IMG/VR virus record: IMGVR_UViG_3300028173_000072
Location: 1-20,874 of that record
Source: a virus
Reading direction: 5' to 3' (one strand)
DNA: 20,874 nt
The notes under the pieces: generated by a model
Told to the model about the DNA's origin: nothing
Seen by the model: only the letters and a program-made list of their open reading frames with translations
The model's database searches: none
Part shown: one piece after another, positions 2,699 to 17,491 of the stretch
Layout of the letters: every line of letters begins with the position of its first letter
How positions within the stretch are numbered: position 1 is the first letter of the stretch
Made by a program: the position numbers and the translations under genes

Positions 2699-5600
2699 AT
2701 GGCTAAAGCAGGATTGAGTGCATTCATGAGCCCAATGTTTGGCGCAATGGATACAGGGCTGAGCTCCACCCCGAACCCGTACATGCCTACGGACGTTTCT
2801 AAAACTATAACGGGCGTTGATAACCTAGGGCCAACGTCAGCAGACATAGCTGTTATGGGTGAGGCGGCACGTACTAAAGCTAACCAGTTCGACATGCCTG
2901 CTATGAACCGCCCAAGTTCAAACGTAGCATACAACCGTTCAACTAAAGAGATGTTTGTTAACGGTTTGTTATTCCCTGCCGAAGACCATCGTGCTGCACT
3001 TGCATCAGTGAACGAATTGACTAAGCCCCCGGTTAGCCCACCAGCTGGAGACTGGCGCCCTGTAGACCAGGGTGAGTACGAGTCATACATTAATAATATA
3101 CAAGACCCAAGCCTCGGCAGGCTAGTAAGTAAGAACTGGGATGTAGGTGTTGACAACTTACAGCTACTCAGCGGTTACTTAATGCAGGCGCTAGGTGCTG
3201 TTGATACAGGGCAGGGTATTGTTGATAACAACCTTAGAGAATTATCCTATAACGAACCATATCAGCGCCTTGCAACTGACATAGAATCGGGTAGTCAGGC
3301 AGTGGATTGGTTTGTATCTAACGGAGCTCAGCTAGCACCAATGCTAGTTGAAACTGCTATCACCACATTGATTGGTGCAGGTATAGGTGGTGCAACCGGC
3401 GGAGGAAACCCTGTCAGTACAGCAGGTGGTGCGCTACTCGGTATGTTTGGTAAGGAAACAGTTAAGAAGGCACTCATTGTGGCTGCGAAGAAGCGTGCAG
3501 CAGGGCAGACTATTACAGCTGCTGAACATAAATTACTACGCGAGGCAACAAGTTTCACTATGGCTGCAGCCGCCAAGAGTCCGGTTGCATTTAGGAAAAC
3601 GTTAGACAAAACAGTAGCAAACACATTATCGCAAGGCAAGCGACAAGCAACAGCAGGTGGTGCAACTATTGCTAACATGACAAACATGTATGGTATTGGT
3701 GTAGGTGATATCTATGGTGAGACGGGTAGTAGAACAGATGCATTCTTAGGTGCTGTACCTTATGCACTGCTAGAGATGATGCCCGAGTTTGCATTAGCTA
3801 AGCGCGTATTTGGTACATCCAAGACTGCTATTAAAGATATCGCAGGTAAGGGCGCTAAGGCTAGAGCCATTGGTAGTCGCGCAGGTACTGGCCTACTAGC
3901 AGGTGGTACTGCTGAGGGTTTAGTTGAAGCCTCACAAGAGGGTATCCTAATCGGGCTTAATGAAGACGTAGATATGAACAGTGAGGAAGGTGCTCATCGT
4001 TTGATTAACTCGTTCGCAGCTGGCTTCGGTATCGGTGGACCTATTGGTAGTGTCGCTAATATCCCAGGGCGGTTTGACCTAGCAGGTACTGACCAAGTTG
4101 ACTTACTTAAACCAAAGGGTGTAGAGGCAGCTGATGTTACTACAGTAGGCGAGGCTGGACCGATGCCTATTGATACACCGCTGTATGATGTGCCAGAGGG
4201 CAACATCGGCGCTACAGCATCAGGGCAACAAGGTTTATTAGGTGTGTTTGGTCCGCAGATGACAGCCGCTGAAATTACAGATAAGATGGGTGTACCAGTT
4301 TCGACTGAGGGTGTACCTACACCAGAGCCTATGACTGTTGAGCAGGAGCAAGAGGCATTTGATTTACAGCGTGAGGAAGCATCGCAAGATGCAGCAAAGG
4401 ATGACTTCAATGAGTTGCAACGCCAAGTGCGACAGATGCGTGCTGACCAGGAACGTGAGGAACGCAGAGAATCTGCGAAACAGGAGCAAGAGCAACAAGA
4501 CTTAGACTCAGCATACGGCGCTGCAGTTAGTGGTGAGACTACAGAGGCGCAGAGACAAGTACAGCAAGACCTAGGGTTAGACGCTACTCCTACCCAGGAC
4601 ACTGAACAGCTAGAGTTCTTCGATGATGAAGACGGAGTAACTAAGAACGCCTTGACTAAAGGTGAGGAAGAATCCAGTTCGACTGGCACAGAGGATAGCA
4701 CCAAGAAACAGAATGAGACCCTCGATAAAGCAATAGATGGGCTTATTGGTGACCCGCAACCTATTGACGACGCCACTGCTGGTGATGCTAAGACATGGAA
4801 TAAAGCTAAGGGTAAAGGCGGTATCACCTGGGCTAACCTAAGTGATGCAGGTAAGAGCGCATGGATTCAAACACGGAAGACACTTAATAAAGACCTACGA
4901 AATACTGCAACATGGGAGCGTGTTGCTAAGCGCATTGAAAAGAACGCCGGAGCAAAACCAACTACTATTAAGAAGGGTGTGGCAACCCTTAAGAAAGGCG
5001 CAGCGAAGGTTAAGGTTGCAGCAAAAGCAACAGCAAAAGCAGCGGGTAAGAACTTAGGTACACCAATCACACCTATCGCGATTGAAGGTGAAGAGACAGA
5101 GAAACCTAAAGTCGCTAAGAAACCTAAGGCTAGTGAGAAACTTAAGGTCGCTAAGAAACCTAAGGTCGCTAAGAAACTTAAGGTCGTGAAGAAACTTAAG
5201 GTCGTGAAGAAACCTAAAGCTAGTGAGAAAGAACTCGCTGGTAACATGCTTAAGAAGAAGACATCACCAACCAAGGACACCCCAAATAAATTCCTAGACT
5301 TACCACCAGCAATGAAACTTAAGTCTAAGCGTAAGACTCAACTGAGTACAGCTGAGACATTACATGTGGGTACGAACAAATCTGTCAAGCTATCCTCGTT
5401 AACCCCCGAACAACTTAATGAACTAGAAGAGTTACGTGCTAACCGCGCTAGTGAATCAGACTTCGAGTCGTTCTTCCAGGAGTTAACTGCAACAGAAGTT
5501 GAGAAAGAAGTAGCCGCTAAGAAAGCTAATAAACTATTAGGTATAGCCACTCAACTAACTGCGAAAGAGCGTAGAGATGCGAAGACTAAGGCAGACAAAG

Positions 5601-8600
5601 TTACAACAACAACTCAAGGCCAAGCTAGAGATGCATGGGATGCACATGGTTTACCTATTAAGTGGGGTGAGCTTAACCATGTACGCCAGCTTGAGGTTAA
5701 GCGGTGGATGGATAGCCATAAGGGCAAGATATCTAAAGTCCAGGCGCTTAGGATTGCTCAAGCTGAAACAGATAGCAAGGGGGCATCTACAGTTAGGGAG
5801 ATAATCACTACGCTGATGCAAGACATCGAGGGTGAGAAGAGCTCTAAGAAGCAGAAGTCTATGCTCACACACGTGATTAACAACTGGCTTCTCAACCTTA
5901 ACCGTGTAGGTAAAGGCCACGTAACGTTCAAAGAAAACCGGGCTGTAGGTAAGTGGTTGAATGAAACAGAGTTTGGCCCTGCAACACGCACGTTTATAGA
6001 CAACACAATAATTTCTAATCTACGAGATAATGAGCCGCGTCCTGCATCTTCTAAGGGGCAGACACACGCATACTTCAAGTACCTAACAAACCAAGGTCTG
6101 CTTGATGATGCACGTTTATCCGACATTGAATTTACAGGCGAGGCTATAGAAGCCCCTAAGGTAAAAGGTAAGGCAAAACCTAAAGCAGTAACAGGCCAGG
6201 ATATAGTTAAAAAGTTACTCCGTGTTAATGCAGCTGGGTATCAGAACGTGAAGCAGGCTAAAGCAAAACTTGATAAGATGTTAGCTGATGTTAGCCAGAA
6301 GATTCTTGATACTACTGTGGTAGACCCCGAACGTGGTACTGTGCTTAGTGATTACATAATCGGTGGTAAGTTCAAAGCTGAGATGCTGGGTAGTAAAGTT
6401 CTTATTAAGACTGATGTACTGAGCAAAGACTCTCGCACTGATGTACAGGCTGCTATCGCTGCAGAGACTAAAATCATAGGTATGAACTCAGTTAGGTTGG
6501 GAGCATTCATAAAACAACTTCGCACTAAGACTAGGGCAGCTAAGAAGGAAGTAGGCATTACTCTCACCATGAGTGAGAACGAACGTGACGATATAATCGA
6601 TAAAAACCCTGCACTCAAGGAAGACTTACGACAGTTAGATGTTGCGCGTAATGTACAGAACGACAAGGCACAGCGTAAGTCTGATGCCACCATTGGTAAG
6701 TATATGCGTGATGATGGTGAGACTATTAACAACCCTCTGTCACTCGGTAAGACTAAACTATTAGTTAAGAAGTGGATTAAGAAACTTAAGGTTAACCCTA
6801 TAGTACGTGTGTTCAGAGACCAGGCTCATATGAAGCAGACTGCTCCGGAGTTATTCAAACGAGCAGTAGCAGCACGAGCTGACGAGTCCTTTGAAGATAC
6901 CTCAGCGATGGGGTACTCATTTGGTAATAACATTATTATATTCAGCGATAGAGTCCCAACTGAGAAGGCACTGAAAGTTGTGTTAGCCCACGAGGTAATA
7001 GGACACAACGGGTTACGAGCTTTATTATCCCCCGCTTCAATCAAAGTAATCCTCAGTAATATCTTAGAGTTTGATACCGTTGTGCGAGCAGAAGCTATAC
7101 GCAGAGCAGACGTATATGGCATAAGTAGACTAGAAGCCGTAGAAGAAATTATTGCTGACTCTGCTGCAGCGATTGATAATAATACACTGCTTAGATTGTG
7201 GGAAGCTATTAAGGGGGCGTTCAAAAAGATATTCAACCATGAGCCTCAACAGTGGGAAGCTAGATACTGGGTACATCACCTACGCAGGTATGCTAGAACA
7301 GGCAAATCATCCTTGGCTACACCTGAGGCTATACTAAAGAACATGGAGACCTTAGTGCAGGATGAGAACTCTGGGCGCTATGCAATGGCTGACACAGCAT
7401 CGACTGCTTCCAACTGGTTACAGACTGCTGCACTCAACCAAGGTATGTCTAATTTCTGGGGGCGCCTTAAAGAACTAACTAATCCAGGTGAACTTAAAGA
7501 CTATATAGATAGAACGGGCGGTATTAACAACGTGACTAATGATGTCATGGAGTTCCTCCAGACGATGGACCACACTGCTCTAAAATCCTTAGGGCTGCAT
7601 GAACTCTACAAGATGTTTGAGAGCCAGGGTAAACAGTCGGGTGACTTAATGAATCGCTGGAACCGCATGATGTCTCGTGTATGGGAGCTAGAGGCCAGTG
7701 GTGGTTTAAGTCAAGTAGAATATAACCAAGTATCTGAACTATTAGCTATGGCATCACTATATAAGGGTGGCAACCTAGATAGCAACCTACTTAGAAAGTA
7801 TGGTGATAAGAAACTATTTGTTATATCAGATGGCGTATGGGTTGAGAACACTGTAGTGACTGATGCTATGAAGCTAGAAGGTAGGGTAACGCTCGCACAG
7901 TTTAAGCAAGGGATTAAGATAAAAGTTAGTGAGACAGAGACTGACGGTGAGATTGAGGCTGAGTTCAGTAAAACGTTTAAGCCAGACTACCTAGCAGGAC
8001 TAACTGAAGATAGTAAAGTCTGGAAAGCCTATAACGAAATCATGGATACCATGACGGACAAGGCTCTGGAGAAACTCAAAGGCCGCCTTGAATCTGCTGA
8101 AGAGGAGCAGGCGGGTGAGCTAAGTAAGTTACGCTTTATCGGCGTTGATAAGGACACACCAACCTTTAGTCGTGGGCAGATGGATACTATCAAAAAGATA
8201 TATGACGTATACAAACGTATCCATTGGGAGAACCCGGACATAGACAAGACAACTGGGTTAAAGATACCTAGTAGAGAAAGCACAGAGAAGGCTGAGACTT
8301 TTCTAATACAGATAACACGGGCCTTCCACAACGACACTAAGCTACAAGACTGGCTAACTAAAAACCCAGATGAGGATTCATTTGAGTTCCTTAACGAACC
8401 TGGTGTCGCCGGTATTGTTAGAGAGTTGCAAGGGTTTAATGATTTAAAACTAGACCTTGATGCACATGTGTACCCTGTGCAGAACACTATCCGAGAGATA
8501 TTCACAACAGATACACTGGTTAAGGATGCTACGCTAGGCGCTGCCCGTTCAATACTAGGCTCTTACGTACCACTGTGGCGTAAGGGTAAGTACCAAGTTA

Positions 8601-11005
8601 TGATGAAAGCCTATGACTCTAAGGGTAACTCGGTGCAGCTGCATAAGTCTATCCACCTCCCATACTACCAAGGTGATAGCAAGACCAACATGGAAGGCAT
8701 CATGAAGGAGCTGGATAGCAATGAGTTATTTGGTGGTAAGTCCTATAAGGTACTAAACTTTGAAGGGCATGAAGTTAATGTGACGCTCAAAGCTGAGCGA
8801 AGTGAAACTCGCCAGGCTCAACCAGCATCAACAGGTATTGATTACCATGCGGTGCTACTAACCATGAAACGTATCGGGCATACACTGTCGAACACCGAGC
8901 GTATTAAGCTCGTGAAAATTACAACCGCGGCATCTGACCGTAAGCGTAAAGGTTTGATGCGTGAGAATGTCGCTGGTTTCGACTGGGATATTATTAAGTT
9001 TGTATCTGAGGACTTAGAGGCTGCTGCACACGTCATCAGTAAGATGAATAACATGTATAAAATTACTTCACTTATGGATAGAGGTGAGATGTGGTTCGGT
9101 AAGCGAAGCACACTAGATGCACTAGCCGCTAGGGTTAATGAGTTCCCAGAGAGTGAGTATGATACCGACGCATTTAAAACTGCTAAGCGTGCCTTTGATA
9201 GGTATGCATATGCATACCGCCATATGGCTGGTGCTGAAGCAGGTGAAAAAGGTAGGCATATTAAGATGACTGTCGCTGGGAAAGAGGTTGACTTACAACT
9301 GATGGGACAAGGCGAGCGCTACAAAGATAAGGCTGAGGAAATACTCGCATGGTATAGAGAGGCGGATAATATCTCAGTGAGTACAGAGGACATGCTATCT
9401 CGACACCCTATTGGCTCGAAACTTAAGATGATTACTGTACTGATGCAACTCGGTGGAAATATAGCCATTGGTATCATTAATACTACTTCACTACTACTCC
9501 ACACGTTACCACTACTTGCAACGTACAACGCGAAGAACGGTACAGGTGGCGGCTTCGGATTTAGTAAAGCCACTACTCAAGTATTTAATGTAGCTACTAG
9601 GCTAGGACACCGTAAGTATTCTAAGATTGATTACCTCAAGCAGTTAGCTGCTAAGGGTGCAGAGGGTGATGCTCTTAGGAAAGAAGCTGGTATTGAACAA
9701 CACACTGCTGAGTTCCTACTGTCAGAAACCCAGAAGGGTGGACTACAAGCAGCGTTGTTCAATGCACTCATGGGTTCATCACGTGGTAGTATCACTAACC
9801 CTAGGCTGATAAGCGCTATCAATAAATGGATGGCTCCATTCACCTACACTGAGCAACTCAACCGTAGAGTTTCAGCCATCGCTTCATATGAGATGGAGTA
9901 CGCTAGAGCCATTGCATCTGGTGAGTCTGAGAAAGAAGCTGTACATATTGCTAAGCGAGAGGCAAGAATTACTGTCGAGCAATCGCAGGGTGAGTACGGT
10001 ATGTTTAATAGACCTAAGGTAGCACGTGGTTCTATATTACAATTTCCATTTATGTATAAGCAGTTCCCTATCACATCAGTGCAGTTATTGACACGTATGC
10101 CACCAGCTGGTAGAGTCTATTACCTATCACTGCTTGTGTTTGTTGCAGGTATTAAAGGTATACCTTTTGCTGATGACCTCATGGACTTAGTAGATACTCT
10201 GATGCAACATTTTGGTATTAAGAAGAAGACCGTTGAAACTGAGCTCAATAATTTCTTTGATGCGTTATCCCCCGGCTTAGCGCCATACGCTATGAGAGGT
10301 GTGTTGGACAACATAACAGGCGGTACAATTTCAACACGAATTGGTATGGGAGATTTGTTGCCATTGACGGGGTCGCTTAAAGAAGGGGCGTCGTTCAAAC
10401 ATGAAACGATTAATGCTCTCGGGCCAGTAGCCGCAGCAGGTAAAGGCATAGTAACAACAGGTTGGAACTTACTTGAGTATGGTGCAGAAGCTGTGGGTAT
10501 TAAGTCTGATAAGAGCAACTTTATTGATGTGCTTAGAGATGCACCATTGACTGGGCTACGAGCGTTATCTGACTCCTACTCATACATGGATACAGGTCAG
10601 ATAACTAACTCTAGGGGGCAAGTGTTGTCGCGAGAGATGGACAACAAGACTGTCCTTATGAGGATGCTAGGGTTCTACCCATCGGTTGCATCAAGGCAGA
10701 ATGATATTGTTAGGATGGCGAAACAGACAGGTGACTACGCGAAGTCAGTACGTGCAGACTTCCGCAATGCTTGGGTTAAGGCAACTATAAATAAAGATAC
10801 TGGATTGGCACGTTCTATTGAGACATCAGTGGATGAGTGGAATGCAGTCGCAGGTAATGACTCTCCTTTCTACATTAGTAACTTTATAAAATCTGCTAAT
10901 AGGTCACTACGCGAATGGGAAAAACCACCGTCTGAAAGACTACAACCTGCGAAGACTATGAAGCCTACGTTAGAGCAGCTCCGTAGGATGTATGGGTTTG
11001 ACTAA
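2699..11005 (+). CDS. Giant virion/polyvalent protein with HExxGH zinc-peptidase-like and PLxRFG-like domains
   Basis: A single uninterrupted frame of 2768 residues; the ATG follows an AGGAG site with 6 bases of spacing. Order of parts seen: Gly-rich hydrophobic segments at about 216-252, 395-420 and 438-457, possibly membrane-active; a charged Gln/Glu/Arg coiled coil at 545-605; a Lys/Ala-rich H1-like stretch ending in 5-residue repeats at 801-845; helical regions; a zincin-like block with beta segment 1405-1417, HExxGH at 1431-1436 and a downstream EExxAD at 1482-1487; a long helical part; Pro-Leu-Trp-Arg-Lys-Gly-Lys-Tyr at 1958-1965, resembling the PLxRFG domain signature; hydrophobic stretches at 2244-2276 and 2473-2490; and a basic helical C-terminus. 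Known giant phage proteins of this type are virion components thought to be ejected with the DNA. Here that role, and proteolytic activity, are inferred. I saw no clear lytic transglycosylase motif. Its place as third in the set matches T7 gp16, though it is about twice as long. Confidence 0.85.
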   Translation: MAKAGLSAFMSPMFGAMDTGLSSTPNPYMPTDVSKTITGVDNLGPTSADIAVMGEAARTKANQFDMPAMNRPSSNVAYNRSTKEMFVNGLLFPAEDHRAALASVNELTKPPVSPPAGDWRPVDQGEYESYINNIQDPSLGRLVSKNWDVGVDNLQLLSGYLMQALGAVDTGQGIVDNNLRELSYNEPYQRLATDIESGSQAVDWFVSNGAQLAPMLVETAITTLIGAGIGGATGGGNPVSTAGGALLGMFGKETVKKALIVAAKKRAAGQTITAAEHKLLREATSFTMAAAAKSPVAFRKTLDKTVANTLSQGKRQATAGGATIANMTNMYGIGVGDIYGETGSRTDAFLGAVPYALLEMMPEFALAKRVFGTSKTAIKDIAGKGAKARAIGSRAGTGLLAGGTAEGLVEASQEGILIGLNEDVDMNSEEGAHRLINSFAAGFGIGGPIGSVANIPGRFDLAGTDQVDLLKPKGVEAADVTTVGEAGPMPIDTPLYDVPEGNIGATASGQQGLLGVFGPQMTAAEITDKMGVPVSTEGVPTPEPMTVEQEQEAFDLQREEASQDAAKDDFNELQRQVRQMRADQEREERRESAKQEQEQQDLDSAYGAAVSGETTEAQRQVQQDLGLDATPTQDTEQLEFFDDEDGVTKNALTKGEEESSSTGTEDSTKKQNETLDKAIDGLIGDPQPIDDATAGDAKTWNKAKGKGGITWANLSDAGKSAWIQTRKTLNKDLRNTATWERVAKRIEKNAGAKPTTIKKGVATLKKGAAKVKVAAKATAKAAGKNLGTPITPIAIEGEETEKPKVAKKPKASEKLKVAKKPKVAKKLKVVKKLKVVKKPKASEKELAGNMLKKKTSPTKDTPNKFLDLPPAMKLKSKRKTQLSTAETLHVGTNKSVKLSSLTPEQLNELEELRANRASESDFESFFQELTATEVEKEVAAKKANKLLGIATQLTAKERRDAKTKADKVTTTTQGQARDAWDAHGLPIKWGELNHVRQLEVKRWMDSHKGKISKVQALRIAQAETDSKGASTVREIITTLMQDIEGEKSSKKQKSMLTHVINNWLLNLNRVGKGHVTFKENRAVGKWLNETEFGPATRTFIDNTIISNLRDNEPRPASSKGQTHAYFKYLTNQGLLDDARLSDIEFTGEAIEAPKVKGKAKPKAVTGQDIVKKLLRVNAAGYQNVKQAKAKLDKMLADVSQKILDTTVVDPERGTVLSDYIIGGKFKAEMLGSKVLIKTDVLSKDSRTDVQAAIAAETKIIGMNSVRLGAFIKQLRTKTRAAKKEVGITLTMSENERDDIIDKNPALKEDLRQLDVARNVQNDKAQRKSDATIGKYMRDDGETINNPLSLGKTKLLVKKWIKKLKVNPIVRVFRDQAHMKQTAPELFKRAVAARADESFEDTSAMGYSFGNNIIIFSDRVPTEKALKVVLAHEVIGHNGLRALLSPASIKVILSNILEFDTVVRAEAIRRADVYGISRLEAVEEIIADSAAAIDNNTLLRLWEAIKGAFKKIFNHEPQQWEARYWVHHLRRYARTGKSSLATPEAILKNMETLVQDENSGRYAMADTASTASNWLQTAALNQGMSNFWGRLKELTNPGELKDYIDRTGGINNVTNDVMEFLQTMDHTALKSLGLHELYKMFESQGKQSGDLMNRWNRMMSRVWELEASGGLSQVEYNQVSELLAMASLYKGGNLDSNLLRKYGDKKLFVISDGVWVENTVVTDAMKLEGRVTLAQFKQGIKIKVSETETDGEIEAEFSKTFKPDYLAGLTEDSKVWKAYNEIMDTMTDKALEKLKGRLESAEEEQAGELSKLRFIGVDKDTPTFSRGQMDTIKKIYDVYKRIHWENPDIDKTTGLKIPSRESTEKAETFLIQITRAFHNDTKLQDWLTKNPDEDSFEFLNEPGVAGIVRELQGFNDLKLDLDAHVYPVQNTIREIFTTDTLVKDATLGAARSILGSYVPLWRKGKYQVMMKAYDSKGNSVQLHKSIHLPYYQGDSKTNMEGIMKELDSNELFGGKSYKVLNFEGHEVNVTLKAERSETRQAQPASTGIDYHAVLLTMKRIGHTLSNTERIKLVKITTAASDRKRKGLMRENVAGFDWDIIKFVSEDLEAAAHVISKMNNMYKITSLMDRGEMWFGKRSTLDALAARVNEFPESEYDTDAFKTAKRAFDRYAYAYRHMAGAEAGEKGRHIKMTVAGKEVDLQLMGQGERYKDKAEEILAWYREADNISVSTEDMLSRHPIGSKLKMITVLMQLGGNIAIGIINTTSLLLHTLPLLATYNAKNGTGGGFGFSKATTQVFNVATRLGHRKYSKIDYLKQLAAKGAEGDALRKEAGIEQHTAEFLLSETQKGGLQAALFNALMGSSRGSITNPRLISAINKWMAPFTYTEQLNRRVSAIASYEMEYARAIASGESEKEAVHIAKREARITVEQSQGEYGMFNRPKVARGSILQFPFMYKQFPITSVQLLTRMPPAGRVYYLSLLVFVAGIKGIPFADDLMDLVDTLMQHFGIKKKTVETELNNFFDALSPGLAPYAMRGVLDNITGGTISTRIGMGDLLPLTGSLKEGASFKHETINALGPVAAAGKGIVTTGWNLLEYGAEAVGIKSDKSNFIDVLRDAPLTGLRALSDSYSYMDTGQITNSRGQVLSREMDNKTVLMRMLGFYPSVASRQNDIVRMAKQTGDYAKSVRADFRNAWVKATINKDTGLARSIETSVDEWNAVAGNDSPFYISNFIKSANRSLREWEKPPSERLQPAKTMKPTLEQLRRMYGFD
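5099..5233 (+). repeat. 15-bp imperfect repeats encoding a Lys-rich tract
   Basis: About nine imperfect 15-base units encode pentapeptides of the Lys-Lys-Pro/Leu-Lys-Val-Ala/Val and Lys-Ala-Ser-Glu type, residues 801-845 of the giant protein. Variation between units is mostly Pro/Leu and Ala/Val exchanges. The frame is kept throughout. Confidence 0.85.
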
Positions 11006-13848
11006 TTAACCATCTGTAATTGACCCTGCAACAAATCCTCTGCGGCTACATCAGCATCATCTAGTATGCCTTGCAGTCGTGGATGATTGAGGTTGATACC
11101 CACAACATATGCTTGACCTAGTTTGATAGGTGTGTTCTTACCTAAGAAACACTTCTTAGACTTAGGTGTAGCATCAATGTGTTCACAGGTAAGTTCACCA
11201 CAGAACGACTTGTAATCATGCCCGCTCATAGATAACCACTTACGGAAGTGAGTACGGTCTAACATTAGCGTACCACTGCTGAACACGTCAGTCATTGTCT
11301 TACGGAAGACATCGAACCTAACACGTATCTCTCCACGTGGTAATCGTTGGAAGTCAACCACTGGCTTCTGTCCTGCTGTGTGCATAACAGTGACAGCAAC
11401 ATCAGCGAAGTCACTAAGGTAAGCAGCGATGATATCAAACGAGTCCATCTTACTTTCTTCTGCCACTATTCGGATAGCACCTATCTGTTCAAGTACCCAC
11501 TCAGTTCCCTTAGTATAGTCATAGTCAATCAATCCCCAGTCCTTAGCAAGTTTAGATGCTAGGTCTGATAGTATGATAGCTTGTTCCCAGAATCGTTCTT
11601 GCCCACTGAACTCAGCGCCGTATCGTTTGTGGAATGTGTCAGTTGCTTCGGCAACCATGGCTCTTATATCTTCAGAACCTATTTCCATCAACTTGTTTAT
11701 GAATGTGTGGCCTGCATGACCGTAGTTATTTGTTACGAAGTTATAGAGGTTTCTACCTGCTGAGCTGCTCTTAGTAAATAGTTCGTGTGGCGGCACAGTA
11801 ACCTCTAGTAAACGTGCCATCTGTGCATCGGTGTCTAACCCAGAGGCTATCAACTTAGATTGCAGTGACTTGTTTGTAGATACAACGACCGGGGTTGCCC
11901 ATGTTTTTGTATCACGCTCTACTGCTGAGCGACTTAGTCTCGCCTTGTCTTTACCTTGGCTCACCCAGTAACAGAAGTCGCCAACCTCTTTGTCTTGCAT
12001 CATGGTGACCTCATCAATGGTCATCGGTAAATGTGCATACAAACCCATACGGTTGAACAGTGTGTTCTGTGTAAACTTCGCAGCGAAGTGCAACTTGTCT
12101 GGGTCACCATAGATGGATTGTATCCAGTATTGTGCTAGTGTTTTACCACCACCTGTTGGCCCATATAACGACACCGTTAATCCCTTCAAGCCAGTGAAGT
12201 TATACAGCGGTGCAGAGAAGCCAACGCCCAAAGCAAACATATGACTCGGCATATGTGCTTTCTCTAGCATGTTAGTCATCGTAGTCCACGCTGCAGCGTC
12301 TCCTTTCCTGCCATACATACCTGTACTTAAGTTGCTTGATGCTGTTGATAATGTAACTTGTTCTTCTGAGACACTGCCGTCATCTGCTTTGCTTATAACT
12401 GTGTCGCCTATAACAAAATGCGTATTGTTTTCTTTCCAACCCATGGTTGAATAGAGGTTGGTCATGGTACGTATCTGCCTTAGTTCTTCCATGTATGTTC
12501 GTAACATAAGTTGAAAATACTCCGTCTGTCGTTTGTTGAATAGCACAATACCTTGGTCTGCTATCGCAGTAGGAAACTCTCTGCTTCCATCTGTTAAGTA
12601 TGCTTGTCGTAATTTAAGTTCAGTCCACCCGATGTGTGGTCGCTTCCAGTGGAAACGAACAACTTCATAATCAAGGTGGTCATCACGTCCATAACCTACA
12701 GGGTATATGTCAAACTTACATATGTCAATATCAGTATCATCAATAGTCATCTTGATACCATGCTGTGTACGCTTAAACGGTTTCGGGATAGGTACTAGGT
12801 TCGCTACCTTATCTGGTACTTCTGTAGTAATGGCTACCTCTTGGTACTGGATACCTAGTCGTGCTGGTGAGCCAACTTTGCCTGCATACTTACACCCTCT
12901 ACAACCATTCGGTCTATCAGATTTAAGTTTGTCACAAGTTGTTGGTCCAGTAGCATTGTCTTTCCACTGGATAACTTTATCTCTTGTCACTGACTCAGAG
13001 TAGGAGTCATGCCCCTCACTCCATTTGATTGCAGTATCTTCTGGGTCTACACAGAATGCCGCAACTCCGATGAGGCTATACCACAACGGCTCTGGTACAT
13101 CCTTCTGGTTCTTAATTGCCCAACCAATCTGCTGACACTTACTAGATACAACAGAGCCAACAGCAGGTGGGTACTCTTGAGTCACTGCTAAGTTATTCAG
13201 CAACGAACTCTCACGTGGTTGTCGACTACTAGGGGCCTGATTGTATTGCACGTAGTTTGTAAGTTTACTTAGAAGAGCTTTAGGCGTAACAGGCTCAGCA
13301 TCCACCAACAACTTCACCTCGTTCCCATTCTTAGGGTTGTGAGTTCCAACTGGTCGTAGTACCAGTGCACTGTTGGTTGTTAGTCCTGCATCAATATGAA
13401 ACTCTTTCTCTGCTGCGGCTAACTTCATAGCACCAGCCAATGGCTTCCACTGCATAGGTGTTAGTTCTTCTGTAAGAACCCAGTATACATGCAGTCCGTT
13501 ACCAGAGAAAATTATCATAGGCTTCGGTAGTTCCAACTCGTTGATGAACTTGCCTAGTGCTGTTAGTCCAGCCTTCCAGTCTGGATATGGCTTTGTTTCA
13601 CCACAGTCCACATCAAGTGCCACAACTTTGGTTGCCCTAACGTTGTCTTGCTTTCGGTTGCCCTTAGTTTTAAAGGCTGATATTGCGTAGTAGGTATTGT
13701 TTTTAGTTTGGTCTGACCTAACACAGACCTTTGATAGCTCGTCTACACTGTTAAAGAACCCCTGTCTATTACCGTCTTTGTTGATGACAGTAGTGACGTA
13801 GAACCCCTTGGTAGGTAGAACGCGCTGTAGAAATTCCAACGTGTCCAT
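11002..13848 (-). CDS. Primase-helicase: AEP-type primase fused to a DUF927-like ATPase
   Basis: A 948-residue protein predicted to make primers and unwind DNA at the phage fork. The N-terminal part shows the archaeo-eukaryotic primase pattern: an Asp-x-Asp pair at D79/D81, Ser-Gly-Asn-Gly-Leu-His at 115-120, His-x-Asp at 151-153, and Arg165 before a Gly-Thr-His-Asn-Pro-Lys segment. Cys238, Cys305, Cys316 and Cys319 lie in a segment resembling the Cys-containing linker of such primases and could bind zinc. The C-terminal part is a P-loop ATPase of DUF927/SF3-like type, with Walker A GPTGGGKT at 563-570, Walker B MTIDEV at 609-614, a sensor-like Ser-Thr-Asn at 657-659 and a possible arginine finger at Arg679. 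The ATG follows a GAGGAGG site. The gene is last in the minus-strand arm, lies just after an intrinsic terminator, and its stop overlaps the stop of the giant gene. Fold assignments are by motif reading. Confidence 0.85.
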   Translation of the reverse strand: MDTLEFLQRVLPTKGFYVTTVINKDGNRQGFFNSVDELSKVCVRSDQTKNNTYYAISAFKTKGNRKQDNVRATKVVALDVDCGETKPYPDWKAGLTALGKFINELELPKPMIIFSGNGLHVYWVLTEELTPMQWKPLAGAMKLAAAEKEFHIDAGLTTNSALVLRPVGTHNPKNGNEVKLLVDAEPVTPKALLSKLTNYVQYNQAPSSRQPRESSLLNNLAVTQEYPPAVGSVVSSKCQQIGWAIKNQKDVPEPLWYSLIGVAAFCVDPEDTAIKWSEGHDSYSESVTRDKVIQWKDNATGPTTCDKLKSDRPNGCRGCKYAGKVGSPARLGIQYQEVAITTEVPDKVANLVPIPKPFKRTQHGIKMTIDDTDIDICKFDIYPVGYGRDDHLDYEVVRFHWKRPHIGWTELKLRQAYLTDGSREFPTAIADQGIVLFNKRQTEYFQLMLRTYMEELRQIRTMTNLYSTMGWKENNTHFVIGDTVISKADDGSVSEEQVTLSTASSNLSTGMYGRKGDAAAWTTMTNMLEKAHMPSHMFALGVGFSAPLYNFTGLKGLTVSLYGPTGGGKTLAQYWIQSIYGDPDKLHFAAKFTQNTLFNRMGLYAHLPMTIDEVTMMQDKEVGDFCYWVSQGKDKARLSRSAVERDTKTWATPVVVSTNKSLQSKLIASGLDTDAQMARLLEVTVPPHELFTKSSSAGRNLYNFVTNNYGHAGHTFINKLMEIGSEDIRAMVAEATDTFHKRYGAEFSGQERFWEQAIILSDLASKLAKDWGLIDYDYTKGTEWVLEQIGAIRIVAEESKMDSFDIIAAYLSDFADVAVTVMHTAGQKPVVDFQRLPRGEIRVRFDVFRKTMTDVFSSGTLMLDRTHFRKWLSMSGHDYKSFCGELTCEHIDATPKSKKCFLGKNTPIKLGQAYVVGINLNHPRLQGILDDADVAAEDLLQGQLQMVN

Positions 13849-13860
13849 TTGTCCTCCTCA

Positions 13861-13885
13861 ATAAAAAGAGGGGAAGTTCCCCTCT
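13861..13885 (-). terminator. Intrinsic terminator between the HTH gene and primase-helicase
   Basis: On the minus strand, a GC-rich inverted repeat (13885 to 13867; up to 8 paired bases around a 3-base loop) is followed at once by five T and then AT. This is the classic rho-independent form. It starts 9 bases after the HTH gene stop and ends 12 bases before the primase-helicase ATG, within the leader that carries that gene's ribosome binding site. It may be a partial terminator or attenuator rather than a full stop. Confidence 0.75.
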
Positions 13886-13894
13886 CTAGTCTGC

Positions 13895-14182
13895 TTAATG
13901 ATACTCCTCTAAATAATCAACGAGTTGCTTTTTTCTGTCCTTAGGGTCAAGCACAATGATATCGGGTGATGGCCACCCTTTGTCTTGCATAACTGACAGA
14001 AGTTTGCGTAGTGTATCACGTAGTTTGATATCATTATCTTTCCGAATGGGCGTACCCTTCTTCCAACTATGATAGGTCATACGTGACACTCCCACCACTG
14101 ACGCCATGTCAGTGATAGTAAGCATCATATGCTTACGCAGCGACTCCACTTTAGAAAAATCAAGTGGCTTCGGTTTAGTCAT
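13895..14182 (-). CDS. Small helix-turn-helix DNA-binding protein
   Basis: A 95-residue protein with an HTH of the Xre/Cro or bacteriophage-replication-regulator kind at about residues 21-43: a helix with Ile-Thr-Asp-Met-Ala, a Gly-Val-Ser turn, then a recognition helix with Tyr-His-Ser-Trp. Basic residues flank it and a charged tail follows. I chose the ATG at 14182 because the AGGAG at 14192-14196 sits 9 bases upstream; the TTG at 14188 would leave only 3. The start overlaps the end of the preceding gene by 8 bases, suggesting translational coupling. It is the last gene before the terminator. It probably regulates phage transcription, but no operator is evident, and a role as a replication accessory DNA-binding protein is equally open. 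Confidence 0.75.
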   Translation of the reverse strand: MTKPKPLDFSKVESLRKHMMLTITDMASVVGVSRMTYHSWKKGTPIRKDNDIKLRDTLRKLLSVMQDKGWPSPDIIVLDPKDRKKQLVDYLEEYH

Positions 14183-15155
14183 CGGCAACTTCTCCTACAA
14201 GAGCAGCAATCTCATCAGCAAGGCTAGTCGTAGCACTGTCAGCAACTGGTGCTTCAGCAGGCTCTTCAACAACTTTTCTTACTTTAGGTTTTGCTTTAGC
14301 CTTAGGCTTAGGTGCTTCAACAGGTGCTGCTTTACCAAATCCCTTAGTCACTGGTGCTTCTTCAACCACTGCTACAACCACTGCTTCAACCACTGCTTCA
14401 ACCACTGGTGCTGGCTTGGCTGCAACTTTAGGTACAACAGGCTTATCAATTTCTTTCTCACCTGTTATCTTTAACACTTGCTCAGTACCAAACAACTTAT
14501 CTACTGCGGCTTGCGCTGCTTCATCAATGAAGCCACCAAATCCAAACGCTAACTTAGGGTATGACGCATCAGTATCGAAAGACAACGTGGTCTTAACAAT
14601 CTCTGGTGGTATGCCTCTTGTAGATAGTTCTTTCTGGTAGGCGTTCAACCCTTTCAATGCACCCGGAGTTACTTGTAGTAAGTACACTGAACCATCGGCA
14701 TCATCAGCAGCAACTACTGCTAAACGTTTCTGGTCTGCACAGGCTTTAATCTGCTGACCTTGTGGTGTTAACTTAGAACCCCAAGCATTCTGAGGACATG
14801 AGGCACACAAATCGTTCTGTGGATTGGTGCTGTCAGTATGTGGACCGACACCAGTCAACGAGAAACAGTCTGGTGCTGAAGGCTCTGCATCTGGAGTCCA
14901 TGCTTTCTCATACCATGTCTTAGATAACCTAGGGTTAGCACCCACAATGATTACATCAATCTTGGTTGAGTCAAGGACTGTTTCATCACCGCCATCAACG
15001 ATGCGGAAACGACTACCTTTGATAGAGATACGTGGGAAGCCATCGCCACCCGTTGCTAGTCCACCTGTTAACGATTGCGCTAATACAGATGGTGCGCCTA
15101 CTTTGCCTGCAAGGTGTGCAGGAACTTGGATATTACTGGGAACAATATTTGACAT
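14175..15155 (-). CDS. Candidate phage ssDNA-binding protein with Cys cluster and acidic tail
   Basis: A 326-residue protein. Residues 1-235 look like one globular domain, with Cys97, Cys117, Cys120 and Cys139 spaced so that they could bind one zinc ion. Residues 240-310 are a Pro/Ala/Val/Lys-rich linker containing a repeat. The last 16 residues are acidic and end in Asp-Asp, as in many ssDNA-binding proteins, where such tails contact partner enzymes. It resembles a conserved phage protein found in replication clusters beside helicases and polymerases, but I could not match it to a named family. Its position between helicase and primase genes supports ssDNA binding. The ATG follows an AGGAGAG site. 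Alternative: another replication accessory protein. The function is inferred. Confidence 0.5.
   Translation of the reverse strand: MSNIVPSNIQVPAHLAGKVGAPSVLAQSLTGGLATGGDGFPRISIKGSRFRIVDGGDETVLDSTKIDVIIVGANPRLSKTWYEKAWTPDAEPSAPDCFSLTGVGPHTDSTNPQNDLCASCPQNAWGSKLTPQGQQIKACADQKRLAVVAADDADGSVYLLQVTPGALKGLNAYQKELSTRGIPPEIVKTTLSFDTDASYPKLAFGFGGFIDEAAQAAVDKLFGTEQVLKITGEKEIDKPVVPKVAAKPAPVVEAVVEAVVVAVVEEAPVTKGFGKAAPVEAPKPKAKAKPKVRKVVEEPAEAPVADSATTSLADEIAALVGEVADD
14359..14406 (-). repeat. Four 12-bp tandem repeats in the linker of the candidate SSB
   Basis: Four adjacent 12-base units (14359-14370, 14371-14382, 14383-14394, 14395-14406), the last two identical and the others differing by one or two bases, encode a Val/Glu/Ala-rich piece of the linker, about residues 251-266. 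The frame is preserved. Confidence 0.85.
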
Positions 15156-15177: not shown

Positions 15178-15582
15178 TTAAACATCAACTTTGGGTGCAG
15201 GCTTACGGACATTGACGTCAATCTTTGTGCCGTATGTAACTCCTGCGGGGACAGCCTTGTTCATGTCGATGTATCCACGAACTGCTGTTTTACTTACACG
15301 CTTTTCAAACAAGTCGTATGCTTCGTTCTCTCTGATAAATCCTAGCATAGCGTCCCAGTCTGCAACTCGAGCATAGTCATTGGTAGTTAGAAATGCTGTA
15401 CCATGATTGGTCTTGAAGGATGTTACTCCGTCGGCATCTGCTTTCTCCTTTAACCACGACTCAAGTTTCGTCATGTTCTCTTTAATACCTTTGACCTTTG
15501 CTTTCGACTCAGACTCAATGGCTTCTTTCTTCTTGCGAAACTTCATGTAAGTTTCAATTACTTGGTCTACTGTTAGACTCAT
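15178..15582 (-). CDS. Conserved phage protein of unknown function, replication cluster
   Basis: A 134-residue protein. Residues 1-50 are Lys/Glu-rich and probably form a coiled coil. Residues 53-100 contain a Thr-x-x-Gly-Thr-Ala segment followed by Trp-Asp-Ala-Met, and residues 93-134 contain Ser-Lys-Thr-Ala-Val and a Pro-Ala-Gly-Val segment. This layout, a coiled coil followed by a small beta-rich part, recalls Mu Gam-like and Gp157-like phage proteins, but the similarity is only general. The ATG follows a GAGGTGA site. It lies 3 bases after the helicase gene and 22 bases before the candidate ssDNA-binding gene, so it probably works with them. No catalytic residues were recognised. Confidence 0.65.
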   Translation of the reverse strand: MSLTVDQVIETYMKFRKKKEAIESESKAKVKGIKENMTKLESWLKEKADADGVTSFKTNHGTAFLTTNDYARVADWDAMLGFIRENEAYDLFEKRVSKTAVRGYIDMNKAVPAGVTYGTKIDVNVRKPAPKVDV

Positions 15583-15585
15583 ATG

Positions 15586-17136
15586 TCACCTCGTTTCTTG
15601 TTGTATTAAATCAAGAAGCAATCCCTGTAACTTTTGTTTGTTACGTAGCCTGTCATACATCTTAGCCTCCACTGCGATGGACTCAATGTGTACAACATTT
15701 GATACATGCTTCTTACCTATTCGCTCAATGCGACCATTCGCTTGAACATACTGCTCGTTACTTGTTATCGGTCCATACCATATGATGGTCGACGCTGATG
15801 TTAGCGTTAACCCATGAGCCATAGTTGCAGGATGTGCAATCAATACCCTTGGGTCTTTACTATTTTGGAAGTCGTTGAATATCTGGTTGCGTTTTGTTGA
15901 ACTCACTGCACCATTAACAACTGCGACACTCCACTTCTTCTCCAACTTAGCCTTCAACATATGTAATGTTCCAGTTAACGGAACGAACAATATAACTTTC
16001 TCACCTGCTTCTTCAATCACCTCCTCTACTGCTTTAATTCTAGGCGAACAGTCCAACTCAATGTTCTGCCCGTCATCACCATAGACTACACCACATGCTA
16101 TCTGTACAAGTTTCTGTAACTTAACAGCCTCATTGACAGCAGTGATAGAGCCTTCCTCTTCCATTTCAATAACGAAACGCCTTAGCATTTCCTTGTAATA
16201 CTTTTCCTGTTCCTTAGTCAATGGTACTTTACGTGTCTGTATTATAGTATCGGGTAAGTCAAAGCACTCATCACGAGAATACCTAACCGATGGTTGTAAT
16301 ACATCCTTCACAATGTCCACTGACTCTGGTCTGGGTAGCCACTTCCATTGCCCTATCTTCATCATCACTTGGTCACGGAACGCAGTGTATGTGTTGGAAC
16401 AGAACGGACTGTTGACTAACTTCGCTAACGCCCAAGCATCTGTTGGGTCATTAGGTGTTGGTGTACCTGTCATCAACCACAACCTTGTATTCCTATTACC
16501 TTCCATCCACTTACGGAATATCTTAAACCTATTAGTAGATGGGTTGCGTAGTACAGCAGCCTCGTCAACGATGATAAGGTCAAACATATCTTTCGCTTCC
16601 TCTGCTATGATATTAAATCCATCATGGTTAATGATGTAGAAGTCAGCCTTAGTATGTAGCAACTTCTTTCTACGTGCTGCTGTTCCGTGTAGTGTGACTG
16701 CAGTGCGATGTATAAAGCCTGTAAATATACTATCACCCCACACCCTTTCAAGTGTAGACAGTGGTGATATGATTAGACACTTCTTAACCTCACCTGCATC
16801 CATCAAGTAGTCAGCAGCCCATAGTGCTGACTGCGTCTTGCCAGTACCAATGTCATTAAGTACCAGTGCTTTCTTGTGCATGGTTAAGAATGCAGAGGTT
16901 AAGCGTTGGTGCTTGTAGGGAGTGAAATCGCCAACCCAGTCATAGTAATGTAGGATAGGTGAGGGTACTTTAATACCGAGGTTACGCAGTACCTTTACTT
17001 CATCAATCTTATGGGGTGCTACTACAATGTCAGTACCTTTAACTGTCATTAACTTTGCAGATGGTATGCAGTCAAGCACACGGTTAGGGTTAGTAAGTTT
17101 TAACGCAATAGCCTTGGCTTGTTCGACAACTACCAC
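15586..17136 (-). CDS. SNF2-like superfamily 2 helicase
   Basis: A 516-residue ATP-dependent DNA helicase or translocase with both RecA-like lobes. Seen in order: Lys75-His-Gln before motif I; Walker A Asp-Ile-Gly-Thr-Gly-Lys-Thr at 95-101; DEAA box at 191-194; Thr-Gly-Thr-Pro (motif III) at 223-226; His-Gly-Leu-Thr-Leu-Thr (motif V) at 441-446; and Gln-x-x-Gly-Arg-x-x-Arg (motif VI) at 465-472. The Gly-Thr-Gly-Lys-Thr P-loop and the motif VI form are typical of SNF2 helicases in phage replication clusters. The start is GTG, 4 bases after an AAGGAGG site, and overlaps the VRR-NUC gene by 7 bases. Paired with that nuclease it could act in recombination, fork restart or cleavage of branched DNA; that pairing role is inferred. 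Confidence 0.9.
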   Translation of the reverse strand: MVVVEQAKAIALKLTNPNRVLDCIPSAKLMTVKGTDIVVAPHKIDEVKVLRNLGIKVPSPILHYYDWVGDFTPYKHQRLTSAFLTMHKKALVLNDIGTGKTQSALWAADYLMDAGEVKKCLIISPLSTLERVWGDSIFTGFIHRTAVTLHGTAARRKKLLHTKADFYIINHDGFNIIAEEAKDMFDLIIVDEAAVLRNPSTNRFKIFRKWMEGNRNTRLWLMTGTPTPNDPTDAWALAKLVNSPFCSNTYTAFRDQVMMKIGQWKWLPRPESVDIVKDVLQPSVRYSRDECFDLPDTIIQTRKVPLTKEQEKYYKEMLRRFVIEMEEEGSITAVNEAVKLQKLVQIACGVVYGDDGQNIELDCSPRIKAVEEVIEEAGEKVILFVPLTGTLHMLKAKLEKKWSVAVVNGAVSSTKRNQIFNDFQNSKDPRVLIAHPATMAHGLTLTSASTIIWYGPITSNEQYVQANGRIERIGKKHVSNVVHIESIAVEAKMYDRLRNKQKLQGLLLDLIQQETR

Positions 17137-17441
17137 TGTACCTCCTTGGCACTAATGATATAGTCCTCGACTTCTTTAATAGTGTCGTCATCAAAGACCA
17201 AGAAGCACTTGCCACCTGCTGCTTCTATGTCCCTCATACACTTATCTTGTAGGGCTGTGGGTTTCTTAGTCCTGTCAGCCTTAGCCTCGACTCCTACTAT
17301 CCTACCTTTAACTATTGCAAGCCTGTCTGGTATACCCGCCCTTCCAAACGGACCAGACTGTGGACTAAAGTACCATATCTTATACTTCTTAAATACTTTA
17401 TCCAGTCGACTTTTAATCTTACCTTCTGGTGTTGTTGCCAT
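17130..17441 (-). CDS. VRR-NUC domain nuclease
   Basis: A 103-residue protein that is essentially one VRR-NUC domain, a small PD-(D/E)XK-type nuclease fold also found in FAN1. Visible catalytic pattern: Glu6 in the first helix, Gly-Ile-Pro-Asp with Asp39, Glu52-x-Lys54, and Gln65 in a Thr-Ala-Leu-Gln segment. Phage versions are stand-alone and may resolve Holliday-type or other branched DNA. Its start has a GAGGAGG site, and it is the first gene after the strong promoter at 17462-17491. Its end overlaps the helicase start, implying coupled expression. Confidence 0.9.
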   Translation of the reverse strand: MATTPEGKIKSRLDKVFKKYKIWYFSPQSGPFGRAGIPDRLAIVKGRIVGVEAKADRTKKPTALQDKCMRDIEAAGGKCFLVFDDDTIKEVEDYIISAKEVQW

Positions 17442-17461: not shown

Positions 17462-17491
17462 ATTATATACTTATATTTACAGCAGTGTCAA
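17462..17491 (-). promoter_or_regulatory. Consensus sigma70-type promoter, minus strand
   Basis: In the 50-base gap between the Cas4-like and VRR-NUC genes, the minus strand holds a perfect TTGACA (17491-17486) and a perfect TATAAT (17467-17462) separated by 18 bases, with AT-rich sequence between. Transcription would start near 17455, giving a leader of about 14 bases before the VRR-NUC ATG. It would drive the VRR-NUC, helicase, 134-residue, candidate SSB and HTH genes up to the terminator at 13861. Confidence 0.75.

Follow-up and report, generated by a model that had tools for sequence, protein, structure and literature searches.

Gene order and promoter of the operon

The analysed stretch of DNA (the window) is a virus contig of 20.9 kb. 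The genes on its minus strand follow one another in the order exonuclease, endonuclease-like protein, SNF2 helicase, 134-aa protein, candidate single-stranded DNA-binding protein (SSB), helix-turn-helix (HTH) protein and DUF927 primase-helicase, with a promoter of the TTGACA-18-TATAAT form between the first two and a hairpin between the last two (Table 1). A DNA-level blastn search of the window against known phages gave no match. The primase-helicase gene converges with a plus-strand gene for a 2768-aa protein (2699-11005), the two overlapping by four bases (11002-11005), which leaves no space for a terminator between them; the C-terminal part of this giant protein resembles a PLxRFG-type structural protein of Pseudomonas phage H66 (25% over 17%).

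Table 1. Positions of the operon genes, the promoter and the elements of the gap in front of the primase-helicase gene.
Feature	Position	Strand	Remarks
Sigma-70-type promoter TTGACA-18-TATAAT	17462..17491	(-)	12/12 matches; before first operon gene
103-aa endonuclease/resolvase-like gene	17130..17441	(-)	first of operon; phrog_93 E 2e-16
SNF2-type DNA helicase gene	15586..17136	(-)	PF00176, PF00271; phrog_62
134-aa gene	15178..15582	(-)	phrog_13900; its "minor head protein" label doubtful
Candidate ssDNA-binding protein gene	14175..15155	(-)	OB-like core, Cys insert, acidic C-terminal tail
97-aa XRE/Cro-type helix-turn-helix protein gene	13895..14188	(-)	PF01381 E 3e-4; alignment of 24
Intercistronic hairpin AGAGAGGGGA-ACU-UCCCCUCUUU	13865..13887	(-)	core 19-nt palindrome 13885-13867; position kept in 67/70 relatives' gaps
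T-run TTTTTATT	13860..13867	(-)	gives hairpin its terminator-like look; strong in close relatives of window only
Shine-Dalgarno (SD) GAGGAGG of primase-helicase gene	13853..13859	(-)	
948-aa DUF927 primase-helicase gene	11002..13848	(-)	last of operon; PF06048 E 1e-25; phrog_25314, phrog_8841

The perfect sigma-70 consensus lies 3.6 kb upstream of the primase-helicase gene and is conserved in the close relatives of the window. Counted from the start of the primase gene, a 12/12 site lies at -3607 to -3726 in the window and in L005, L006, L011, L012, L014 and L063, and many other relatives carry sites with 10-12 of 12 matches at about -3.6 to -4.05 kb; no promoter of this kind was found in L047, L051, L058, L061 and L064. 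The minus strand between 13848 and 14900 holds no promoter-like site with at least 9 of 12 matches, the nearest one being a weak 9/12 match at 14974, within the candidate SSB gene. Promoter-like sites close to the hairpin are also rare in the relatives (L036 at -174, L054 at -84). Since the primase-helicase gene has no promoter of its own and the conserved one stands 3.6 kb upstream, its transcripts must come by read-through from upstream. The sequence-only reading had named such read-through among the ways of reaching the gene, and had noted that nothing but the HTH gene separates the hairpin from the candidate SSB gene; the promoter scan and the gene map of the window agree with both.

The candidate SSB has 326 aa and matches phrog_27714. 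Its insert contains the invariant residues Cys97, Cys117, Cys120 and Cys139, and its acidic C-terminal tail is shared with the gp2.5-like SSB of one relative (G011). A low-confidence model (pLDDT 58) aligned to T4 gp32 (1gpc) with a VIA-align Z of 5.3, and Foldseek with the candidate SSB returned nothing significant (E above 0.4). The likeness to T4 gp32 comes from the second-look aligner and the cysteines, and is suggestive only. In some relatives (L061 4290-5667, L099 12851-14228) a gp2.5-like SSB gene adjoins a shortened counterpart of the candidate SSB of the window, and in G011 it is the gp2.5-like protein on which the acidic tail sits. The HTH gene precedes the primase-helicase gene in nearly all relatives from viral contigs, and the recognition region of its product is conserved (VSRMTYY/H). 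A tblastn search with this protein against known phages gave no match.

Structure of the hairpin and its conservation

Read along the minus strand, the HTH gene ends with its stop codon at 13897-13895, and then come the palindrome, the T-run, the GAGGAGG site and the primase-helicase ATG at 13848. The palindrome, AGAGGGGAACTTCCCCTCT, is perfect over its 19 nt; with G-U pairs included the hairpin has 10 pairs (13887-13865), and this full stem starts 7 nt past the HTH stop. The predicted stability is -10.9 kcal/mol for the core and -14.5 kcal/mol for the full stem, which corresponds to a stable GC-rich hairpin. Past the last G/C seven of the eight positions of TTTTTATT are T (TTTTT at 13867-13863, an A, then TT at 13861-13860), a U-tract of the kind that marks intrinsic terminators. 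The minus-strand sequence places the hairpin within one or two bases of the position first proposed for it. A strict pattern (seven perfect pairs with at least four G/C, a loop of 3-6, and at least five T in the next eight positions) matched a single time over the two strands of the 20.9 kb window; in 60 dinucleotide-preserving shuffles the mean was 0.12, with at least one match in 6 of the 60. As the pattern was built from this very hairpin, the figure serves as a guide only. Taken by itself, the hairpin stretch has a modest fold (z -2.0; 5 of 200 shuffles equally good). A built-in terminator scan of the window did not call the hairpin, apparently because greedy stem extension consumed the T-run, and an Rfam search of the window gave no match at the gathering score.

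Searches with the primase-helicase yielded about 150 loci, from which 70 distinct HTH-to-primase gaps of viral contigs were compiled; L040 and L046, with a longer gap, stand outside this count. In one of the loci (L063, G021 5903-8706) the primase-helicase match falls into two overlapping pieces with in-frame stops, which suggests a frameshift or an assembly error. A hairpin is present in 67 of the 70 gaps, with stems that are unrelated between clades yet internally complementary. The three gaps without one (20-22 nt) belong to a single clade (L022-L025), and the hairpin is therefore dispensable. When 38 representative gaps were folded and compared with shuffles, the mean z was -2.60 and none lay above 0. 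The stem begins 0-15 nt past the stop codon and ends 11-29 nt ahead of the ATG. Of the representatives, 37 have a hairpin, and every one of these is rich in purines in its 5' arm and in pyrimidines in its 3' arm. Loop length at this junction varies from 3 nt to more than 30 nt (ACU, UAA, GCAA, loops of 11 nt and above), and no loop or stem sequence is preserved across clades.

The pairing itself is maintained through sequence change. Within one clade three of the ten pairs have changed on both sides, and 95.7% of the cells pair. When relatives whose gaps have the same length were compared in pairs, the single comparisons not being independent of one another, there were 41 double-compensatory and 38 pair-keeping single changes versus 32 broken cells. 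Half of the broken cells (16 of 32) came from setting L047-type hairpins against L132, which has one extra base in its loop. The hairpins contain 53 G-U pairs as against 11 A-C mismatches, and the fold of the sense strand is stronger than that of the antisense strand in 38 of the 42 in which the two differ. The excess of G-U over A-C indicates that the hairpin probably acts as RNA, on the coding strand.

A similar hairpin recurs at a second junction. In most relatives the major capsid gene (phrog_267, 301 aa) and the next gene (150-158 aa) are followed by a hairpin in front of the SD of the following gene, often with a CUUCGG loop. These loci comprise L187-L266, together with G001 38302-38331 (+), G002 44601-44618 (+), G004 10132-10162 (-) and G011 46581-46647 (-); the hairpin is absent at this junction in L229, L231, L236, L254 and L258. 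Terminator-like hairpins (7 of 8 T) were also seen after a terminase-type gene (459 aa) in G006 30130-30157 (+) and G011 51679-51717 (-). In cultured relatives, too, hairpins follow SSB-like and capsid genes, some of them with U-runs. Rhizobium phage RHph_TM3_14A has a hairpin (with TTTA) between its SSB-like gene and the primase-helicase gene, with no annotated HTH gene there, and a U-run hairpin in the gap behind its annotated capsid gene. In Pseudomonas phage Rollin the SSB-like gene and the small gene that takes the HTH position have a hairpin between them, and a U-run hairpin occupies the gap behind a 351-aa gene taken as the capsid gene. Because both phages keep the hairpin after the SSB-like gene while the HTH gene is absent or on the other side, the HTH protein is an unlikely partner of the hairpin, which, to judge from these gene orders, goes with the SSB-like gene instead. 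The idea that the HTH protein influences read-through is disfavoured by the same arrangements.

Terminator strength and alternative roles

The sequence-only reading had taken the hairpin for a terminator placed directly in front of the primase-helicase gene. For the window this fits, the d'Aubenton-Carafa-type score of its hairpin being 23; U-tract terminators elsewhere in the relatives' genomes score 16-64 in six of seven cases (the seventh -4). As a conserved function the terminator finds no support, since only 13 of the 67 junction hairpins score above 0 and 54 score below it, mostly far below. A strong T-run (at least 6 T of 8) occurs in 7 of the 67, all of them close to the window and confined to its 13-member clade; the T-run seems to have disappeared from one subclade there. 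The few strong T-runs and the mostly negative scores indicate that the hairpin is the item that has been kept, and that the terminator property is local to the window's lineage. In that lineage the sequence, which in the window scores like a genuine intrinsic terminator, is likely to be a leaky one.

A regulated terminator would stop most transcripts early, until antitermination by the HTH protein or another phage factor gave access to the primase-helicase gene, a switch of timing or dose. The good score in the window would suit it, as would the want of a promoter in front of the primase-helicase gene and the HTH gene just upstream in nearly all relatives. Most relatives, however, have no strong U-run, RHph_TM3_14A keeps the hairpin without an HTH gene and Rollin has it before the gene in that position, and the stems vary too much in sequence to serve one protein as a specific site, so that such a switch is considered rather unlikely. 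An inverted repeat acting as DNA, whether as operator of the HTH protein, as replication origin hairpin or as hairpin promoter of the phage N4 kind, would be in keeping with a perfect palindrome that adjoins both the HTH gene and the primase gene. The strand asymmetry of pairs and fold disfavours it; moreover, the stem varies although the recognition region of the HTH protein is conserved, and loops of over 30 nt are hard to reconcile with this role, which makes it the most improbable of the readings weighed here.

A translational element is also unlikely. Its C-rich 3' arm would be a potential anti-SD sequence: the folded hairpin would free the ribosome site and its disruption, e.g., by ribosomes ending the HTH gene, would hide it, or else the hairpin would insulate the site from upstream RNA. 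The purine-rich and pyrimidine-rich arms found throughout agree with this, and alternative folds between the 3' arm and the SD do exist. In the window, the pairing of the CCCCTC arm with GAGGAGG reaches about -10.8 kcal/mol when the 5' arm is left out, so that the pairing proposed at the outset is possible and stronger than the "weak" one then envisaged; it is, however, no better than that of shuffles of its own stem (fraction as good 0.47). Across relatives the mean number of expected pairs between 3' arm and SD is 4.7, compared with 4.2 for shuffled and 4.1 for non-cognate arms, a weak excess at most; insulation of the site may still apply. The broader design, a group-wide, sequence-free and riboswitch-like one in which the pyrimidine-rich 3' arm pairs with either the 5' arm or the ribosome site and translation of the HTH gene controls that of the primase-helicase, is held to be very unlikely. 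Very unlikely, too, is autogenous repression of the T4 gp32 or gp43 kind, in which a replication protein (the candidate SSB or the primase-helicase itself) would bind the hairpin as an RNA operator. Standing immediately ahead of the ribosome site for a replication protein, the hairpin would be well placed for this, and in T4 the operator of gp43 is such a hairpin (PMC3014915), but the loops run from 3 to over 30 nt, no loop or stem sequence is shared between clades, and the similar hairpin of the capsid junction precedes an unrelated gene.

A probable boundary inside the operon and its known counterparts

Summarizing, the hairpin is explained best, and with fair probability, as an operon-internal 3'-boundary (step-down) element that in the window's lineage would also be a leaky terminator. 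Its location after genes of probable bulk products and before another gene fits such an element, which is probably an ordinary step-down or mRNA-end element rather than a special replication switch. The stem-loop would mark a 3' boundary inside the polycistronic message, where it may hold back some of the RNA polymerases and/or stop 3'-to-5' exonucleases. The upstream part of the message (helicase, candidate SSB and HTH protein) would thereby exceed the primase-helicase part in abundance or lifetime, and because the hairpin folds on itself, the SD site in front of the primase-helicase gene would stay free. In the window's lineage the U-run behind the hairpin would turn it into a leaky intrinsic terminator; in most relatives, which have no U-run, an exonuclease block or a pause is the more plausible role, although the sequence by itself would suit termination and an exonuclease block alike. 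The purpose may lie in a division between bulk proteins upstream and an enzyme downstream, a logic that depends on the identity of the candidate SSB, as suggested by its modelled fold, and on the capsid case. A limited literature search found no transcriptome of these phages.

If this holds, genes of one operon may be expressed at unequal levels without extra promoters in a large group of uncultured phages, by means of hairpins placed after the genes of probable bulk products (candidate SSB, capsid) and before other genes. The locus also carries a caution: one genome suggests a terminator switch, whereas comparison with its relatives reveals that what is kept is the hairpin and not the T-run.

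One close likeness is to the hairpin of the E. coli gal operon, which has an 8-bp stem and a 4-nt loop and lies between the galE stop codon and the galT SD (PMC11925234, PMC9239205). It was shown experimentally to block exonuclease and to set polarity (PMC9239205, PMC11925234). At the junction described here, a hairpin conserved in structure likewise follows the stop codon of one gene and precedes the SD of the next, which is read in the same direction. The galE-galT 'E-hairpin' is similarly GC-rich, with about 8 pairs, and sets the 3' end and polarity without a U-run; it differs in belonging to a bacterial operon and in needing downstream Rho termination or RNase E cleavage, and the window copy has a U-run. 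According to PMC8948821 (citing Tuerk et al. 1988), CUUCGG hairpins occur commonly in the intergenic regions of phages, and one of them stabilises the T4 gene 32 RNA. These T4-type hairpins are matched as phage intergenic stem-loops by many hairpins behind the capsid pair, which have CUUCGG loops, whereas those of the primase junction have other loops, that of the window being ACU in place of C(UUCG)G. Leaky intrinsic terminators of phage operons resemble the window, where the hairpin with UUUUUAUU scores as a terminator and no promoter lies behind it, but most relatives retain the hairpin without the U-run. The T4 gene 43 RNA operator (PMC3014915) is comparable in that a hairpin precedes the ribosome site for a replication protein, and it differs from the hairpins described here in that these have no conserved loop.
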